Below are positions 7,709 to 52,014 of a DNA stretch of 60,625 nucleotides, piece by piece. Both the position numbers and the translations under genes were made by a program. The notes under the pieces are model-generated. The model was not told where the DNA came from and did not search any database. It was given only the letters and a program-made list of their open reading frames with translations. The stretch lies in the IMG/VR virus record IMGVR_UViG_3300048996_000177, positions 1 to 60,625 of that record. One strand, written 5' to 3'. This DNA is from a virus. The stretch's first letter is position 1; every line of letters begins with the position of its first letter.

Positions 7709-8239
7709 ATGATGCCCGTTACACGTGGTGGACGTGTGAAGTCGAATAACCCGAATGCTGTACGGCAAAGAATCCGTAATGCAAAAGGTAATTTGAACGA
7801 AGATATTGAAGCATTGTATGGAAAGCCATTATCAGAATGGGATTTCCAGGAATTGCAGTGTGGCAAGCCCCGCAACAAAGACGGCAAGGTTTCCCGAAAG
7901 GGAAAGAAACCGAAATGGATTTCTCCGGCAATGGCACAGGAAGCCATGCGCCGGTTGGCGTCCATGACGTCGGAAGAGGTTGGCAAATACGCCGGTGAAG
8001 CTGTCGCCACGATGGTGGATCTGATGCAGAATGCCAACGTCGAGATCGTTCGATTCCAGGCCGCACAATACGTGTTGAATCAGATCATGGGTATGCCAAC
8101 GATTCGTACCGAAGGCACCGTAGATGTGAATGTCCACGCATTCCTGGCGGACGTAATCCGCAACCCGGATGGTGTGGAACACCCTGTCATTGAAGGCACG
8201 TACACGGTCGAGGAAGAAGAAGACGATGACGACGAATGA
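7709..8239 (+). CDS. Putative terminase small subunit
   Basis: 176 residues from ATG 7709, after GAAAGGGGG. It is called from position (first gene of the packaging operon, just before the large terminase) and build: basic N-terminal DNA-contacting part, helical centre (MAQEAMRRLASMTSEEVGKY and onward), acidic tail. The AQYVLNQIMGMP stretch recalls phage small terminases. Direct homology is not certain; it could be another DNA-packaging accessory protein. Confidence 0.55.
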   Translation: MMPVTRGGRVKSNNPNAVRQRIRNAKGNLNEDIEALYGKPLSEWDFQELQCGKPRNKDGKVSRKGKKPKWISPAMAQEAMRRLASMTSEEVGKYAGEAVATMVDLMQNANVEIVRFQAAQYVLNQIMGMPTIRTEGTVDVNVHAFLADVIRNPDGVEHPVIEGTYTVEEEEDDDDE

Positions 8240-8429
8240 CGATGGGCAAACACCTCCGCCGGTGACCGAAGGAATGGCCGCCGACCCCAAGTTCAAGATT
8301 GGGCAAACGGTAACCGTGGCAGAATCCACGTGGAAGGCAACGATCATCGGATATGACATGATTCTCGTTCCGAACGTTCGGTATGACGACGGGTCGACTG
8401 ACCACGTGCTGGAACGGGATCTGTCGTGA
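8226..8429 (+). CDS. Small KOW/SH3-like protein, unknown
   Basis: 67 residues, overlapping the previous gene. The core FKIGQTVTVAE ... YDDGSTDHVLERDL looks like a small beta-barrel (SH3/KOW type). Function unknown. Confidence 0.6.
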   Translation: MTTNDDGQTPPPVTEGMAADPKFKIGQTVTVAESTWKATIIGYDMILVPNVRYDDGSTDHVLERDLS

Positions 8430-8716
8430 GTGACCAATCATCCGTGTGTACGACATGCGGCAACACGGCGGAATGGCACCGGATTAACAACCCGCGTCAC
8501 CGGTTCTCGGCGGTCAATGATGGCCTGAATACGTTCGCACCGGAGGATTCCACACCGGACAGTCGGGTTGTGCCCATGACGATGCCGTTCGATCCCGTAC
8601 TGCGCATGGCGTTGATTGACAAGGGTGTTATCACCGTCGCCGATCTGGACGCGGCGGACGCGAAAATCAAACACCTGACGGGTGGGTTGACTGATGGTAG
8701 AACGGAAACGCGTTAA
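8426..8716 (+). CDS. Small protein with CxxC motif, unknown
   Basis: 96 residues, GTG start overlapping the previous stop (GTGA). CTTCG near residue 8 followed by H and HR may bind zinc. The C-terminal half is helical. Confidence 0.6.
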   Translation: MSDQSSVCTTCGNTAEWHRINNPRHRFSAVNDGLNTFAPEDSTPDSRVVPMTMPFDPVLRMALIDKGVITVADLDAADAKIKHLTGGLTDGRTETR

Positions 8717-8942
8717 TGGCCGGGATCAATACGGCAACCTGACATCCAGTGCCAAGATCGAATCGGGCACCGAATACGGCGGTGTGGACGGCGTGATTCA
8801 GCCGCCCCCGCATGTGGCGAATTCCCGGGAAATGCTGATGCAGGTTTACCAAACCGATCCGGCAGCCGGGGCAATCAAATACCTGGATGGGCACACGGAT
8901 GCTGAGCATCAGCCCATTCCGGAGACCAAGAAAATCGTTTAG
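8694..8942 (+). CDS. Small protein, unknown
   Basis: 82 residues, starts inside the end of the previous gene. Polar, no clear fold. Lies directly upstream of the large terminase. Confidence 0.6.
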   Translation: MVERKRVNGRDQYGNLTSSAKIESGTEYGGVDGVIQPPPHVANSREMLMQVYQTDPAAGAIKYLDGHTDAEHQPIPETKKIV

Positions 8943-8966
8943 TACCAACCGTCAGAGGCGGATGCA

Positions 8967-42018: not shown

Positions 42019-42032
42019 ACAAATTGATACGA

Positions 42033-42617
42033 ATGGAGGCGATTAAAATCATCATAGTTGAGGGACCGGATGGTGCAGGGAAAACAACCCTGATCAATAA
42101 AATGGTGCATACGCTCAACCTTCCGGTCCACGCACGGTCGGCCAATTCGGACGGGTCGGCCACCCAATCCACAGAAGGCAGTCGGGGGGCAAATTTATCG
42201 TTATGGGCGTACAACGACGTGACGACACAACTGAATCAGCCCACATCCATTTACGATCGGCATTGTCTGATCTCGGAGTTCGTTTATGGTCCAATTCTCC
42301 GGGCTCATGTGCCCGTCGAAATGACTGGACCGGCAACGAGGTTATTGATCCAGATGTTGGCGAAACAGGTGTTGGTGGTGTATTGCCGTCCCCCGAATGA
42401 AAACCTCGTCATCAACTGCCGGAAAACACCCCAGCCCATTCCACACCTGAATGACCAGAACAATGTGTTGAAGGTGGCCGCCGGTTATGACGCGTGGCGG
42501 GTGAATTGGATGGGTCAGTCCACAATGTTCGATTACACCAACCCGAACGACTTCGCGTCGGTCATGTCCGCGTGCCGCCTGCACATCGCCCATTTCGAGA
42601 ACATGAGGAAATCATGA
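42033..42617 (+). CDS. Thymidylate/deoxynucleoside monophosphate kinase-like protein
   Basis: 194 residues. P-loop VEGPDGAGKTTLI at about residues 9-21 and the DRH motif (YDRHCLISEFVYG at about 75-87) are those of thymidylate-kinase-like enzymes, which phosphorylate dNMPs. Next to MazG- and TS-like genes, it may accept an unusual dNMP, like T4 dNMP kinase. A TTG at 42024 is another possible start. Confidence 0.8.
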   Translation: MEAIKIIIVEGPDGAGKTTLINKMVHTLNLPVHARSANSDGSATQSTEGSRGANLSLWAYNDVTTQLNQPTSIYDRHCLISEFVYGPILRAHVPVEMTGPATRLLIQMLAKQVLVVYCRPPNENLVINCRKTPQPIPHLNDQNNVLKVAAGYDAWRVNWMGQSTMFDYTNPNDFASVMSACRLHIAHFENMRKS

Positions 42618-43141
42618 CGGTAGTTAGTTGCCCCAGTAATTGCAAGGTGTCGGCCCAGCATTTTCACAAGGATGGGAAAACTGTGTGGGGCAACCCACCA
42701 TATGAAGAATCCACCCTGGCGCGCGTGCAGCGGGAATCGGGGGAGTGGCGACAGATCGCATATCCGACCACGGCCACCCCGGAATTGCAAGCGTTGGGTA
42801 TGGCGGAAGAAGTGGGGGAGGTGTGTCACGCGGTGTTGAAAAACATCCAGCAAATTCGGGGGTACAACGGGGAAAAGACCATCGCGGAAGTGGGTGACGG
42901 GCTGGCCGACACAATCATCTACGCGTGTGGGGTGGCTACGGCATTCGGTATCGACCTGGACGCCGAATTGGCGCGGGTGTGGAACCACGTCCGGGATCGC
43001 AACATCACGCAAGGATCCATGGGCAGTGGCAATACCAAATGCCCCCGGTGTGAATCCCCGGAGTCGAAGTTGCATCCAGCGGTTCAATTCGAGGGTGAAG
43101 TTCAGCCGTGTCCCCACGAGTTTCACAAGTCCGCCGAATGA
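42614..43141 (+). CDS. MazG-fold nucleotide pyrophosphohydrolase
   Basis: 175 residues from ATG 42614 (ATGA overlap). Metal-binding motifs of the all-alpha NTP pyrophosphatases: MAEEVGEVCHA (about 66-76) and EVGDGLADTIIYA (about 95-107). A C-terminal CPRCESPESKLHP zinc-ribbon-like part is an unusual addition. Converts dNTPs to dNMPs; T4 dCTPase belongs to the same broad fold. Confidence 0.82.
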   Translation: MTVVSCPSNCKVSAQHFHKDGKTVWGNPPYEESTLARVQRESGEWRQIAYPTTATPELQALGMAEEVGEVCHAVLKNIQQIRGYNGEKTIAEVGDGLADTIIYACGVATAFGIDLDAELARVWNHVRDRNITQGSMGSGNTKCPRCESPESKLHPAVQFEGEVQPCPHEFHKSAE

Positions 43142-44079
43142 TCAACGCGCTGGGATTTGCCACGGCCAATGACGCACATGAAGGCATGTGCAACAAGCTG
43201 ATGTTTGGCGAGAAATGGGGACGAGATTACGACTGGTCGCAAGGGACCGAAGTCGGATTGCACAATGTCGTCATCGGTGCGGATCGGTTCGACTGGGAAT
43301 ACGATCTGAAACGGCTGTGGATGGCCAAGTCCCGGTGGAACATGATGGTGCGGCAATACCTGGACCCGGATGCGGTTGAGGATTGGTTTGCGAAGATCGA
43401 GGATCGATTGGTGGGTAAAGGACGTGGGATTGCTGTTCTACGCACCAAATTGGTGCAAGGCAAAGGAACCGGGCGCGGTGTGCGTCGCCGGTGGGGATCG
43501 TGCATGCTCTCCATGTCATATCGCACCAATCCCATTCCGACCATCACCCTTCATTCGAGGACCACGTATTTCGGGTATCTCGCGGCTATGGACATCACGG
43601 TTGCCCACGTCCTTGCTCGATACATTTCTACGATTGTCGGTATCGATCCGGCGGAAATGAATTTCGTCTGGAATCTGGAACTGGCGCAATTCCACGGGTT
43701 CCGGTCATTGGCGTGGCCGTTGGGTAACCCGGATATCCGTGAACAGATGGACGACGATGTCCACACCCACAAGACGTTTCCAGCTAAACCGCCAAAGGGC
43801 CAACTCCATCTCCCGGTTGCCGGTGGTTACCGAAAGGCGTTGGATGGATATGCACGCCTGATGAAATCGGACCTGGAAAACAAGCTGTATGGGGACGAGT
43901 CATTCTCATCATTCGCGCGGGTACGCCGCCGGTATCACGCTGAAGTTCATGGACCGGAATTCGCCGCACAATTTGAAGGTGGTACGCGTAACAAAGGGGG
44001 ACACAACATGTTCACCCCACTTCCACACCTCCATTCGTCCACATTGGACTTGACACCCATCGGATTTGAGGAATTATAG
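43138..44079 (+). CDS. Diverged thymidylate-synthase-fold protein 1
   Basis: 313 residues, ATGA-coupled to the MazG gene. The central part aligns by eye with ThyA from the catalytic cysteine (RRWGSCMLSMSY), through L-H-S-R (the phosphate-binding Arg) to AAMDITVAHVLA, where Asp replaces the Asn of FNI in ThyA. A later W-x-L-x2-AQFH resembles the ThyA end of the active site. Asp at this place is the mark of dCMP/CMP hydroxymethylases. Family assignment is my alignment and moderate. Confidence 0.6.
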   Translation: MINALGFATANDAHEGMCNKLMFGEKWGRDYDWSQGTEVGLHNVVIGADRFDWEYDLKRLWMAKSRWNMMVRQYLDPDAVEDWFAKIEDRLVGKGRGIAVLRTKLVQGKGTGRGVRRRWGSCMLSMSYRTNPIPTITLHSRTTYFGYLAAMDITVAHVLARYISTIVGIDPAEMNFVWNLELAQFHGFRSLAWPLGNPDIREQMDDDVHTHKTFPAKPPKGQLHLPVAGGYRKALDGYARLMKSDLENKLYGDESFSSFARVRRRYHAEVHGPEFAAQFEGGTRNKGGHNMFTPLPHLHSSTLDLTPIGFEEL

Positions 44080-44472
44080 ATGTCCAACGAATTGACCGAA
44101 GCCGAAGTTGGTAGAACGCTGCGTTTCGTCCAGCGCGGGATGACCAACGAAGAAATCGGCTTCCAGTTACACATCGGTACCACGGCAGTAAAAAACCGGC
44201 TGTCCAAGTTGATGGCCCGGTATGGGTGCCGCAATCGTACCGAACTGGTTCAAGCCGCGATGTCCCGTGGTTTGTTGTCGGACCCGACCATTACGGTGAA
44301 CACCGGTCGGCACAGCAACGGCCAGTATTTTGTCGTCGTGATCACGCCCGGCCGGGAAGACACCGTGGCCAGTTGGTGTTCCAAGGCCGATGCCGACATG
44401 TTGGCATGTGCATTGCGGGGATACCTCAATGCGTCCACCATCACCGATTGGCGGAAGGCACGGGGAAACTGA
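44080..44472 (+). CDS. LuxR-type helix-turn-helix protein
   Basis: 130 residues. The N-terminal 65 residues are a GerE/LuxR DNA-binding domain (LTEAEVGRTLRFVQRGMTNE, IGTTAVKNRLSKLM, GCRNRTELVQAAM). The C-terminal domain is unknown. It sits between the two TS-like genes without gaps, so it may control this group. Confidence 0.8.
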   Translation: MSNELTEAEVGRTLRFVQRGMTNEEIGFQLHIGTTAVKNRLSKLMARYGCRNRTELVQAAMSRGLLSDPTITVNTGRHSNGQYFVVVITPGREDTVASWCSKADADMLACALRGYLNASTITDWRKARGN

Positions 44473-45409: not shown

Positions 45410-45675
45410 TGGATACTGAATCCGATCGGGAAGCTGAGGCGGAATTCCGTCCACACCTGACGAAGTATTTAGCGGCCACTGGACAGCTTCGGGACAACCA
45501 CTTGTTGATGCACTACGGTGTTCTTCACGTCGCCGTAGCGATGGATGCAGATGCCGAACACACCGTTGGATTTATCCCTGATTCCGACTGGCCATACGCA
45601 TATCAATTGGGAGCGTTACAATACGCGCTTACGGTCCACAAGGGACAGATCGTTCGAGATGGTGATGAACTTTGA
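45406..45675 (+). CDS. Small protein, unknown
   Basis: 89 residues, ATGA overlap with the TS-like gene and TTGA overlap with the deaminase. No motif recognised; conserved coupling suggests a role with its neighbours. Confidence 0.6.
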   Translation: MMDTESDREAEAEFRPHLTKYLAATGQLRDNHLLMHYGVLHVAVAMDADAEHTVGFIPDSDWPYAYQLGALQYALTVHKGQIVRDGDEL

Positions 45676-46094
45676 CCAGAACCAGTCGGGACCAGATGTT
45701 GATGGATATGGCGTTCATCGTGGCCGCGCGTGGTACATGTTCGCGGTTGCAGGTGGGCGCTGTGGTGTCCATGGACGGCCGTGTGTTGTCATCGGGGTAC
45801 AACGGCGCACCGGCGGGTTTCGACCACTGTATGCACAGTCCAGCCCAAGATATGCCGTGCACGCAAGCGGTTCACGCAGAAGCCAATGCGATCGTGTTCG
45901 CCGCACGGCACGGTGTGGCAACCGGCGAAGCTATTCTCCACACCACACATCTGCCGTGTCCCGCATGCGCCCGGTTAATCATCAATGCGGGGATCCGCGT
46001 GGTGACATGGCAAGAACCATTTCGGAATGATTTTGGACTGGAACTATTAGAACGTGGAGGAGTTGAGTGGTATCAGCACCCCAGAACCGGATAA
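45672..46094 (+). CDS. Deoxycytidylate deaminase
   Basis: 140 residues. Zinc-dependent cytidine/dCMP deaminase: QVGAVVSMDGRVLSSGYNG, the catalytic HAEANAI (His, Glu) and PCPACARLI (two Cys ligands). Converts dCMP to dUMP, the substrate of ThyX. TTG 45672 overlaps the previous stop; ATG 45696 is an alternative but would cut into the fold. Confidence 0.92.
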   Translation: MTRTSRDQMLMDMAFIVAARGTCSRLQVGAVVSMDGRVLSSGYNGAPAGFDHCMHSPAQDMPCTQAVHAEANAIVFAARHGVATGEAILHTTHLPCPACARLIINAGIRVVTWQEPFRNDFGLELLERGGVEWYQHPRTG

Positions 46095-46453: not shown

Positions 46454-46557
46454 TGACCGAAACGGTGGTTCGTGAATTTCTGTTCGGATTGGGCGGAATT
46501 GCTATTGGTGTGATTCTCGGCTGCGTCATCTTGTGGGTTTGTTTCGGAAGGAAATGA
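46453..46557 (+). CDS. 34-aa membrane micropeptide 3
   Basis: Shares one base with peptide 2. MTETVVREF then a Gly/Ile/Val-rich membrane segment (about 11-31). The matching N-terminus suggests that peptides 2 and 3 arose by duplication. Confidence 0.6.
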   Translation: MTETVVREFLFGLGGIAIGVILGCVILWVCFGRK

Positions 46558-46562
46558 TAAAT

Positions 46563-49130
46563 ATGTCGGTGGGAAACCCCCGGATTGAGTTGGCAGTCCG
46601 CAATGCCGCGTGTACCGCGTGCAAGATGTATGTACAAGCCGATGGTGCAGATAGATGTGTGACGGCGAGCGGAAATTCAAAAGCCGATATTCTGGTGGTT
46701 TCCAAATCACCGTTGGGTGAACGAGGCAAAAAAGAGATCGTCACGTATTTGCAGCGGGCTGGTTTTGACTTGAACCAGTTCGCGTTCACCGGTGCGATCA
46801 AGTGTTTGGTGTGGGATCTAATCCCCGGCCGTAATGATTTGAAAGCATGCAAGGATTATTTGGACGCGGAGATTGAATTCATCCGTCCCAAATGGATTCT
46901 GGCGTTGGGTAACGAAGCGTTGTCATCCACGGCGGGCAAGTCCGGGATCATGAAACATCGAGCGGCGGTGTACACCCGCAAAGACGGCGTCAAAGTGATG
47001 GCTACCGTATCTCCCGCATCGGTGTACCGCAACCCCGGCCAGAAATCCGGGTTCGAGGCGGATCTGGAATACTTCAAACGGCTGACCGATGGTACCCAAG
47101 CTGATTTGAATCTCGAACCCACACCCGATCAATACCACGTGGTCGATGACAAAGAATCCATTCGCCAGATGATTTGGCGGTTGGAAAACGCCATGGCGGT
47201 GTCGTACGACATCGAGTCGAACGGGTTCGATGAATTCAAACCTGAATCACGAATGGTATCGTTGGCGGCAACCATCGAGTGGACCGATCCCAAGACCGCA
47301 CAGACGTTTTTAGACGTGTTTGCGGTGCCATTGTGGCATCCCGAATCGGTATGGCGGACGTCGTGGAAACGCGTGCTAGCAATCCTTGCGCCGTACCTGG
47401 TCAAGGTGAAACATCGCATTGCCCACAATGGCAAGTTTGACGGCCGGTGGATGCATGAATTCGGCATCGCCATTGACGAGACGTTCGACACGATGTTGGC
47501 TCTGCATCTGTTGGATGAAAACCGCCCCAAAGGATTGAAACCCGCAGCCCGCGTGATGCTGGGTGTGGAGCCATGGGCGATCGACACGAAGGATTTGGCA
47601 TCCACACCCATCGTGGAAGTGTTGTGGTACAACGCCTTGGACACGTGGTATACGTTCGGGTTGCGCAACATTCTTCGTGAACAGTTGTTGGAAAAGCCCC
47701 GGTTGGCCAAGCTATTCCAGCACATCATCATGCCCGCCTCGAACACGTTGGTTCACGTGGAACGCCGTGGGGTGTGGACAGACAAAGCCAAGCTCATGAA
47801 ACATTGGGCGATCGCACAGTCCGAATTGGAACGGGTCGATACTCAACTTCGTGCATGGGTGCCGGGAGACCACCCGTTCAAGAAGATCAAGAAACGTCGT
47901 GGCGGAGCGGTTGAGGTTATTGACGGCATTAACTTCAATCCGTCGAATTTTGCTCGGTGGTTTTTGTTTGATCATTTGGAAATGCCAATCATGGAACGGG
48001 GTAAGGACAAGCCGGATGGTTCTCCCGGTGACCCGTCAATGAAAGAATCCGTGTTGTTGGATTTGCAGGAACAGACCAACCACGAAGTCATCAACCTGAT
48101 GTTGGAACGGACGAAGTGGGAAAAATACACGTCGTCATTCTTCTCCGCATACGCCGAGCAAATTGGGGACGATGACCGAATCCACACCACATTTAAACTG
48201 ACGGGGACAGTAACAGGTAGATTGTCATCGGGCAAAGGTGACGAGGAGAAGGTTACGGCGAAGGTCCAGAACCGTGGTGTGAATATGCAACAGGTGCCGC
48301 GTGACGCATTCGTGCGTGGTATCTTCGGTGCGCCACCATCGTGGTATTTCGTGGAATTCGACTTCTCGCAAATTGAGTTGCGAGTGGCTGCATTCCTCGC
48401 TGGTGAACGAAATATGCTCCATTTGTACGCCAACGGAATCGACATTCACATGGCGATGGCCATGCGGATGACCGGCAAACCGGCCAGCGCCGTCACAAAG
48501 GAAGAACGTAAAAAGGCCAAGGCCGTGAACTTCGGATTCTTGTATGGGATGGGGTGGCGCAAATTCATCTCGACTGCATGGTCGACATACGGTGTGCGTG
48601 TTACCGAAGAGGAAGCCAAGGCATTCCGCAAAACATTCTTCGATGAATTCCCGTTGCTCATGAAATGGCATGCCGCGCAACGGCGCATTGCCCACAAACA
48701 CGGGTTCGTGTCTTCGCCGCTTGGTCGCGTGCGACACCTCCCGGACATCCACTCCCGTGACAAGGGTGTGGCCGCCGAAGCCGAACGTCAGGCCATCAAT
48801 TCACCGGTCCAGTCGTTCGCGTCGGATATGGCGTTGTGGTCGATGGTCATCGTGGATCGCAAGTTCAAGAAAATGGGATTGCAAGCCCGTGCGATCGGTA
48901 CCGTGCATGATGCGGTGAACTATGAAATCCCCAAGGAAGAATTGGCTGTGGCGTTGCCGATCATCAAGGACGTCATGGAGAATTTGCCGTTGCAAGAGGT
49001 ATTCGGCATTGACCTGACGGTACCGATCGTGGCCGATTGCAAGGTTGGCACACGCTGGGGTGGCGCGACGGAAATCAGCCCCGAGTCCGTATACGATTGG
49101 GACGATTCGTTGTTGGCGACGATTGGATGA
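46563..49130 (+). CDS. Family A DNA polymerase with N-terminal Fe-S UDG-like domain
   Basis: 855 residues. Residues 1-180 match family 4 uracil-DNA glycosylases: four cluster cysteines (17, 20, 81, 96) and IEFIRPKWILALGNEAL are kept. The two catalytic motifs differ, SKSPLG for GEAPG and SPA for HPA. Residues about 200-370 are a 3'-5' exonuclease (DIESNG at 216). The polymerase follows, with FDFSQIELR at about 600 and VHDAV at about 783. ATG 46563 fits GGAAGGA; ATG 46554 is possible. Confidence 0.92.
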   Translation: MSVGNPRIELAVRNAACTACKMYVQADGADRCVTASGNSKADILVVSKSPLGERGKKEIVTYLQRAGFDLNQFAFTGAIKCLVWDLIPGRNDLKACKDYLDAEIEFIRPKWILALGNEALSSTAGKSGIMKHRAAVYTRKDGVKVMATVSPASVYRNPGQKSGFEADLEYFKRLTDGTQADLNLEPTPDQYHVVDDKESIRQMIWRLENAMAVSYDIESNGFDEFKPESRMVSLAATIEWTDPKTAQTFLDVFAVPLWHPESVWRTSWKRVLAILAPYLVKVKHRIAHNGKFDGRWMHEFGIAIDETFDTMLALHLLDENRPKGLKPAARVMLGVEPWAIDTKDLASTPIVEVLWYNALDTWYTFGLRNILREQLLEKPRLAKLFQHIIMPASNTLVHVERRGVWTDKAKLMKHWAIAQSELERVDTQLRAWVPGDHPFKKIKKRRGGAVEVIDGINFNPSNFARWFLFDHLEMPIMERGKDKPDGSPGDPSMKESVLLDLQEQTNHEVINLMLERTKWEKYTSSFFSAYAEQIGDDDRIHTTFKLTGTVTGRLSSGKGDEEKVTAKVQNRGVNMQQVPRDAFVRGIFGAPPSWYFVEFDFSQIELRVAAFLAGERNMLHLYANGIDIHMAMAMRMTGKPASAVTKEERKKAKAVNFGFLYGMGWRKFISTAWSTYGVRVTEEEAKAFRKTFFDEFPLLMKWHAAQRRIAHKHGFVSSPLGRVRHLPDIHSRDKGVAAEAERQAINSPVQSFASDMALWSMVIVDRKFKKMGLQARAIGTVHDAVNYEIPKEELAVALPIIKDVMENLPLQEVFGIDLTVPIVADCKVGTRWGGATEISPESVYDWDDSLLATIG

Positions 49131-50998: not shown

Positions 50999-51235
50999 AT
51001 GAGCCAACAGTATTTGATCGTGGCCGTCATCGAAGTAGATGAGCCGCAACTGTCCAACATCGTTGCCGCGTCGTCATATGTCGAACGATTGCTCATGGGC
51101 GACGGCACGATCATCAATCGGTGCAAGGTGATCGCAACTGATGAAACAGCCGGGAAGGTGATTTCGTGGGGGGAGAATGACGACCGCATATTCACTGCCA
51201 ATCCGATTCTCCCCGAAATGGGGTACAACACCTGA
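50999..51235 (+). CDS. Small protein, unknown
   Basis: 78 residues, RBS AAAGAAG. Beta-rich start (YLIVAVIEVDEPQLSN). Shares one base with the thyX start. Confidence 0.6.
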   Translation: MSQQYLIVAVIEVDEPQLSNIVAASSYVERLLMGDGTIINRCKVIATDETAGKVISWGENDDRIFTANPILPEMGYNT

Positions 51236-52014
51236 TGGATGTCACCCTGGTTGCCCACACCGTCCTGTCCGAAGATATTACGAGCACCCACATCAGCAGC
51301 GCCATCGAACGATGGATGGCCCCGGTGGATGGTAAAACCCGGTCTATCGCGGACTACGATTATGACGCGGATGTGTTGGCCGAGTTCGCCGGACGTTCGT
51401 GTTATCAGTCGTTCAACCGGCCGAATCCGAAGACTGCCGCCAACAATGATTACCTGGCACACATTCTCGAATCGGCGCACGAATCGGTTCTGGAACACGC
51501 GTCGGCTACGTTCTACGTGACGGGTGTGTCGCGGTCACTCACGCATGAATTGATCCGTCACCGGCACTTGTCATATTCCGAGTTGTCCCAACGGTTCGTG
51601 GACATCGCACCGTCCAAAGAGAACAAGGCCGGTATGGCGTGGATCGTGCCATCCGGGTTAAACGTGACCGACGACCATGAAGTCATCCGGCCCATCACGG
51701 CGGTGCTGAACGACATCGTAACGCCCCTTTACCGGTCGATGGTGGAATCGTTGATGAGTCGTGGGAAAACGCGTAAGGAAGCGCGTCAGGCCGCGCGTGC
51801 CGTCATGCCGAACATGATGGAAACCAGAATTGTCGTCACGGGCAACATGCGGGCGTGGCGGGATGTGATCAAGAAGCGATACCACGTGGCGGCAGACGCG
51901 GAAATTCGGGAGTTTGCAAAGATCGTTTTGAATGAATTACGATCGATTGCGCCGAACACATTCCAGGATATGCCACACGAGCCATTCGGTTCGATGGAAA
52001 AGGGAAAGGGGTGA
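51235..52014 (+). CDS. thyX: Flavin-dependent thymidylate synthase
   Basis: 259 residues. The ThyX signature RHRHLSYSELSQRF (RHR-x2-S-x2-x-S-x-R type) at about 102-115, plus HASATFYVTG and NMRAWRDVI. Makes dTMP from dUMP with FAD and folate. Its presence makes the two TS-fold proteins upstream redundant for thymidine synthesis. Confidence 0.95.
   Translation: MDVTLVAHTVLSEDITSTHISSAIERWMAPVDGKTRSIADYDYDADVLAEFAGRSCYQSFNRPNPKTAANNDYLAHILESAHESVLEHASATFYVTGVSRSLTHELIRHRHLSYSELSQRFVDIAPSKENKAGMAWIVPSGLNVTDDHEVIRPITAVLNDIVTPLYRSMVESLMSRGKTRKEARQAARAVMPNMMETRIVVTGNMRAWRDVIKKRYHVAADAEIREFAKIVLNELRSIAPNTFQDMPHEPFGSMEKGKG

Follow-up and report, generated by a model that had tools for sequence, protein, structure and literature searches.

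The 60,625-base virus record analysed here (the window) encodes, at coordinates 43138 to 44079 on the + strand, a 313-residue protein (counted from an ATG start) that we refer to as P0001 and that is a member of the thymidylate synthase (TS) superfamily. P0001 probably retains activity, with dCMP as its target and a changed cofactor site, and is not a dead partner, because its family has an invariant Tyr-Cys-Arg-Asp core, and it is the replacement of the residue at position 169 that points to the altered cofactor site. We consider it fairly probable that P0001 is catalytically competent, works on the cytosine side and not on dUMP, and is a second, separate enzyme within a cytosine-modifying operon. 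If true, P0001 represents a branch of a textbook superfamily in which the covalent catalyst has been kept and the cofactor side changed.

The reading frame first recognized from the sequence alone is real, with an alternative GTG start (43108) upstream of the ATG at 43138. This ATG overlaps the stop codon of a MazG/PRA-PH-like pyrophosphohydrolase gene (42494 to 43141; start uncertain) directly upstream, forming an ATGA junction, and a gene for a P-loop thymidylate-kinase-like nucleotide kinase (42024 to 42617; start uncertain) precedes it. The P0001 stop abuts a LuxR-type (GerE) HTH gene (44080 to 44472), which itself nearly abuts P0002 (44474 to 45409), a TS homologue of the dCMP type with equivalents of C146, R166, D169, D177, and H207. 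Because of these overlapping, abutting, or nearly abutting gene ends, the MazG-like gene, P0001, the LuxR-type gene, and P0002 look to be co-transcribed. To their right are genes for a dCMP deaminase (45672 to 46094), a DNA polymerase A with an N-terminal UDG-superfamily domain (46533 to 49130), and the flavin-dependent thymidylate synthase ThyX (51235 to 52014), all of them, like those already described, on the + strand. Domains of both the PF01503 and PF00383 kinds are present in this cassette, and no match to TAGT (PF20691) was found in the window. The LuxR-type gene is outside the conserved cassette gene set; at this spot phages Huwbert and Shrew carry different small hypothetical genes, so that it looks like an insertion point. 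The N-terminal uracil-DNA-glycosylase-superfamily domain is present on the cassette polymerase A in all four cases scanned (the window, L003, L008, and L009), and might scan the bases of a genome whose cytosine is altered.

Sequence searches place P0001 in a family of its own. Along its length it is matched by PHROG 13667, a group of unknown function (E 1.7e-85), and by no Pfam family at E 1; the thymidylate synthase family PF00303 is outside the 25 most widely shared of the 37 Pfam families matched among the 127 P0001-family members. When P0001 alone was compared with PDB sequences by phmmer the one match was a weak one to D-glycerate kinase (E 0.04), which was set aside, and a profile built from the family alignment (A4) gave no TS match in PDB sequences, just weak unrelated ones, the best with an E-value of 0.013.

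The predicted structure is far more informative. An AlphaFold2 model computed from the 127-sequence alignment has a pLDDT of 95.5 and a pTM of 0.93, and the best 50 matches listed in a Foldseek comparison with the PDB are all TS-superfamily proteins. First among these is 9iqu, titled 'phage HY126 dCMP hydroxylase-AfhB' (E 7.7e-8), followed by MilA (1.5e-7) and 9iqc, 'Monooxygenase dependent on riboflavin with dCMP and FAD' (1.5e-6), and then by T4 dCMP hydroxymethylase and TS. VIA-align superimposes P0001 on 9iqu with a Z of 16.9 and an rmsd of 3.7 (187 aligned residues, 10% identity), with a Z of 16.6 for 9iqc, 15.8 for MilA (5b6e_B), and at most 12.7 for TS; since rows less than 1 Z apart count as tied, AfhB and 9iqc are level with MilA just under. 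The sequence-only reading had proposed a highly diverged TS fold, and the high-confidence model and its matches to TS-superfamily enzymes confirm it; no confident match to a non-TS fold was found among the PDB matches.

Profile comparisons point the same way with less force. Given no residue correspondences beforehand, hhalign places C122, R141, and D152 of P0001 opposite C228, R248, and D259 of the P0002 family (E 0.004, probability 8.4%), and also brings Cys, Arg, and Asp into register with the RB69 5-hydroxy-dCMP synthase group (E 0.0023, probability 12.7%), the E-values being modest and the probabilities low. These comparisons were uninformative with shallow alignments and improved with the 127 (A4) and 110 (A5) sequences used here. 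In a control in which columns were shuffled, scored over match columns only, the real score was equalled by none of 100 shuffles for the 5-hydroxy-dCMP synthases, 2 of 100 for the P0002 family, 5 of 100 for ThyA, and 25 of 100 for T4 gp42. Profile similarity alone is insufficient, and the case for homology is carried by the fold and the invariant core.

This core emerges from the alignment of P0001 with all 126 of its non-redundant relatives (A4; identity to P0001 down to 11%), in which Y74, C122, R141, and D152 are the sole invariant residues (each 127/127); G120 is present in 122 of the 127 rows. C122 (43501 to 43503), R141 (43558 to 43560), and D152 (43591 to 43593), all encoded on the + strand, are the equivalents of ThyA catalytic C146, R166, and N177, and Y74 (43357 to 43359, + strand) corresponds to ThyA Y94 by order, spacing, and secondary structure. 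The motifs that the sequence-only reading had likened to the ThyA core are present as G120-S-C122, L-H-S-R141, M-D152-I, and W178-x-L-x2-A-Q-F-H, and the likeness goes beyond chance in that C122, R141, and D152 are invariant and D152 follows R141 at a distance of 11 in all 127 rows; the fourth invariant residue, Y74, was absent from that motif list. The same distance of 11 separates R166 from N177 in ThyA and is found in 110/110 P0002-family rows, and C122 and R141 are 19 residues apart as compared to 20 in ThyA. An Asp at position 177 moves TS specificity from dUMP to dCMP, according to passages of PMC8670742. The earlier suggestion that one of the two TS-fold proteins might act on another nucleotide is supported, the dUMP/dCMP-selecting position being Asp in every P0001-family member, and the accompanying one of a non-catalytic partner is disfavoured, as the family holds the catalytic Cys and Tyr just as constant as the residues that bind substrate.

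Position 169, at which an Asp binds folate in TS, is Tyr in 78, Glu in 45, Ser in three, and Leu in one of the 127 P0001-family rows, and Asp in none. By contrast, Asp is kept in 109 of 110 P0002-family rows (alignment A5, consisting of P0002 and 109 of its 144 relatives) and in 70 of 70 T4 gp42-type rows, the latter coming from 80 loci of which eight were left out (L250, and seven whose coordinates were clipped) and two of the remaining 72 were dropped for a stop in the translated stretch; the RB69-type rows have Asn (16/16). The folate-type pattern, as defined by these alignments, is kept by P0002 and not by P0001. A second difference is the segment from the second long strand to Y74, which is only ~23 residues in the P0001 model versus ~48 in ThyA.

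P0001 relatives are widespread among phages. A tblastn search with P0001 identified them in 85 phage records, which by host name are 68 Gordonia, nine Mycobacterium, four Streptomyces, two Microbacterium, one Curtobacterium, and one Mycobacteroides, and a search with the Serbin protein identified 18 phage records, such that about 100 sequenced phages (85 + 18 records) carry a P0001-type gene, with hosts that include Serratia, Pseudomonas, and Yersinia. No relatives were found in plasmids, and one genome contig gave a match. Iterated HMM searches begun from either branch converge on the same 198 ORFs, none of which overlaps with the 219 TS-family ORFs. The relatives are mostly labelled hypothetical, amid a thymine-synthesis gene set. 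Among phages of other hosts, Serbin and PMBT14 carry a 'hypothetical protein' gene ahead of the TS homologue, and in MW202455 and in Yersinia phage P744 the corresponding gene is named 'pyrimidine hmase synthase'; these genes are P0001 relatives by hhalign profile comparison (E 9.5e-8, probability 94%). In L010 (MW202777.1) there is an unannotated P0001 relative at ~8154 to 8960, just upstream of a 'pyrimidine hmase' gene.

The genes flanking P0001 form a conserved operon. Queries from the P0001 family retrieved 124 environmental loci, of which 97 have the exact order kinase, MazG, P0001, TS, dCMP deaminase, and polymerase A, followed by Sak4 in 42 and not in the other 55. Counted individually, the kinase is present in 113 of the 124, MazG in 115, the deaminase in 116, the polymerase in 117, and TS in 121, and the three loci without TS (L147, L166, and L181) end at or within ~250 bases of the P0001-like ORF. 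In 190 of the 192 loci with both genes, among which some contigs were retrieved by two or more queries, the P0001 relative is upstream of TS on the same strand. It had been noted from the sequence that P0002, a LuxR-type gene, and ThyX accompany P0001 and that this is unusual for one phage; all three are present, but the pairing of P0001 with a TS homologue is not unusual, as it recurs as a fixed trait in at least two large phage groups.

The converse does not hold for P0002. Of 26 lone-TS loci, one (L073) was removed as its record held a P0001 relative, and the other 25 have a P0002-like TS and no P0001 on the whole contig; nearby they have a kinase in two, MazG in two, a deaminase in none, and polymerase A in two. 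Because of these 25 whole contigs, a P0002-like TS can exist alone, and P0001 goes with the full cassette. In two of the lone-TS loci listed (L046 and L084), the TS gene is followed by what by eye is a HAD-type 5'-nucleotidase and lacks the kinase, MazG, and deaminase set, possibly reflecting a different pathway. Glycosyltransferases were also compared between the 25 lone-TS contigs and 25 paired contigs hand-picked from the 124: PF00535 is found in nine and two, respectively, and PF13692 in none and one, but as every lone-TS contig with a match exceeds 69 kb, size confounds the comparison and we make no claim that the paired phages lack them.

P0002 itself is a more conventional TS homologue. 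It matches PF00303 with an E-value of 7.6e-5, just under the cut-off, and PHROG 160 (thymidylate synthase) with 4.7e-27, and its model (pLDDT 89.2) matches TS, AfhB, and MilA about equally (Z 19.1 to 19.6). A proposal that a short C-terminus is common only to P0002 and AfhB was dropped, as T4 gp42 is short there too. Phage Huwbert (L003, 8983 to 12027) has three TS-superfamily genes close together: gp65 of the P0001 type, the P0002 homologue gp67, and gp68, a canonical ThyA (PF00303, E 3e-121) whose motif RSSDMFLGVPFNI contains Asn177. By sequence, dTMP is predicted to be supplied separately, by ThyX in the window and by the canonical ThyA in Huwbert. In passages of the announcements of Azira and Serbin, the cassette is taken to serve thymine or general nucleotide metabolism. 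A role in thymine synthesis is disfavoured, because the window has ThyX and Huwbert its own ThyA beside two proteins with Asp177.

From gene content and analogy, many phages seem to use a cassette predicted to alter the cytosine of their DNA. The MazG-like enzyme would cut dCTP to dCMP, P0002 and P0001 would modify C5 of dCMP by way of an adduct between the catalytic Cys and C6, the kinase and polymerase A would bring the modified nucleotide into DNA, and the dCMP deaminase and ThyX would turn leftover dCMP into dTMP. P0001 would be a separate second enzyme. The replacement of Asp169 and the shortness of the segment where the folate-binding helix of ThyA lies speak against a canonical folate enzyme, and P0001 may either oxidise C5 of dCMP as an AfhB-like enzyme or alter the nucleotide made by P0002. 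More tentatively, the two may act in tandem on nucleotide that is still free, with P0002 adding a one-carbon group to dCMP using folate, and P0001 re-forming the reactive C5-methylene for some other acceptor, or oxidising it. In such a tandem P0001 would keep the Cys-C6 chemistry and not the folate site, would start from the hydroxymethyl product, and the finished base would enter DNA through the co-inherited kinase and polymerase. If true, a branch of the TS superfamily that does without folate would complete the hypermodification of the base ahead of DNA synthesis.

It is possible, although we regard it as doubtful, that P0001 is instead an obligate partner of P0002 in a heteromeric TS-fold enzyme with shared sites that jointly makes one modified dCMP. 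A complex would fit the constant adjacency of the two genes, which overlap or touch, with TS present in 121/121 P0001-family loci that do not end at or within ~250 bases of the P0001-like ORF, and nearly always directly downstream. In TS dimers, arginines of the neighbouring subunit are lent to each active site. The R126 equivalent of P0002 (R206) is conserved in 110/110 rows, whereas at the Arg126/Arg127 position P0001 has R102, an Arg in 70 of 127 rows and in two of 45 in the second branch, and P0001 may need the arginine of P0002. However, a P0002-like TS was found without P0001 in 25 of the 26 whole contigs checked and can work alone, and no fusion was found, none of 221 sequences having an ORF that matches both families. 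Nor was there a sign of special co-evolution between P0001 and P0002 in distance correlations over 101 of the 124 loci, those with all six genes found. The partial correlation of P0001 with TS is 0.20 and 0.13 in the two branches and 0.15 in the whole, versus 0.37, 0.52, and 0.67, respectively, with PolA, although these values are a pointer only, as pairwise distances are non-independent, PolA contributes far more sites than the others, and phages may have exchanged TS. Because a P0002-like TS exists without P0001, and P0001 distances track PolA and not TS, a separate enzyme is favoured over a subunit. In the A3-type loci (L167 to L220) TS distances correlate only moderately (0.35 to 0.65) with the distances of adjacent genes, as would be seen if TS in this branch were swapped between phages more often than P0001, the kinase, and the polymerase.

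We find it unlikely that P0001 simply duplicates P0002 as a further folate-dependent hydroxymethylase or methylase of dCMP. It does have Asp177, the catalytic Cys, and the Arg as in T4 gp42 and MilA, and MilA is among its best structural matches, but Asp169 is absent throughout its family and retained in those of P0002 and T4 gp42, and the segment before Y74 is about half as long as in ThyA. It is similarly improbable that P0001 has lost its activity and serves to sense dCMP and control the cassette. The retained dCMP-binding residues, the lost cofactor-site features, and the adjoining LuxR-type gene in the window would suit such a role, but a site for binding only does not need both the nucleophilic Cys and the Tyr94 equivalent, which are unchanged in 127/127 members while nearly all else has changed.

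Among known enzymes, AfhB (9iqu and 9iqc) and the RB69-type 5-hydroxy-dCMP synthase resemble the separate dCMP-directed enzyme that we favour for P0001, with the TS fold, Cys, Arg, and Asp177, and with Asp169 replaced in both. They differ from it in having ~10% identity and, for the RB69 group, Asn at 169 instead of Tyr or Glu, and relative to AfhB, P0001 has a helical C-terminal extension and the short segment before Y74. The Mosigvirus 5-hodCMP synthase is described in PMC13390438 as a TS-superfamily enzyme with an activity distinct from that of the hydroxymethylase, and from its place and annotation we infer that RB69 ORF048c is this enzyme. MilA and T4 gp42, CMP and dCMP hydroxymethylases, share the fold and the dCMP-type Asp177, but T4-type proteins keep the Asp169 that P0001 does not, and P0002 is the closer counterpart of gp42. 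T4-type dCMP hydroxymethylases use folate, and the T4 cytosine-replacement set comprises a dCTPase, dCMP hydroxymethylase, dNMP kinase, dCMP deaminase, and polymerase; the operon parallels T4 gp56, gp42, gp1, and cd, with P0001 as an extra part. ThyA (PF00303) shares the order and spacing of Tyr94, Cys146, Arg166, and residue 177, but has Asn at 177 where P0001 has Asp, and P0001 has neither a PF00303 match nor Asp169.

No description of the P0001 family was found in the literature searched; Lee et al. 2025 (bioRxiv), reportedly on glycosylated 5-hydroxycytosine, and Mahler et al. 2025 are outside that literature and may describe the family. A remote likeness is already noted, in that two database records name relatives 'pyrimidine hmase synthase'; new relative to the literature searched are the core of four residues, the family's loss of Asp169, and the constant make-up of the operon. 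Asp177 marks TS genes on modified-cytosine contigs, which also carry PF01503 and PF00383, according to passages of PMC8670742. The MetaGPA neighbourhoods in these passages resemble the cassette in combining an Asp177 TS with a PF01503 pyrophosphohydrolase and a PF00383 deaminase, but include a carbamoyltransferase, and the passages make no mention of a second TS-fold gene. If the cassette replaces cytosine, it would give rise to an uncharted DNA modification, with a bearing on restriction, CRISPR, sequencing, and phage engineering.

Two loci, L109 and L169, have two P0001-family copies each, and all four copies keep the Tyr-Cys-Arg-Asp core. In L169 the copies flank TS, with one on each side.
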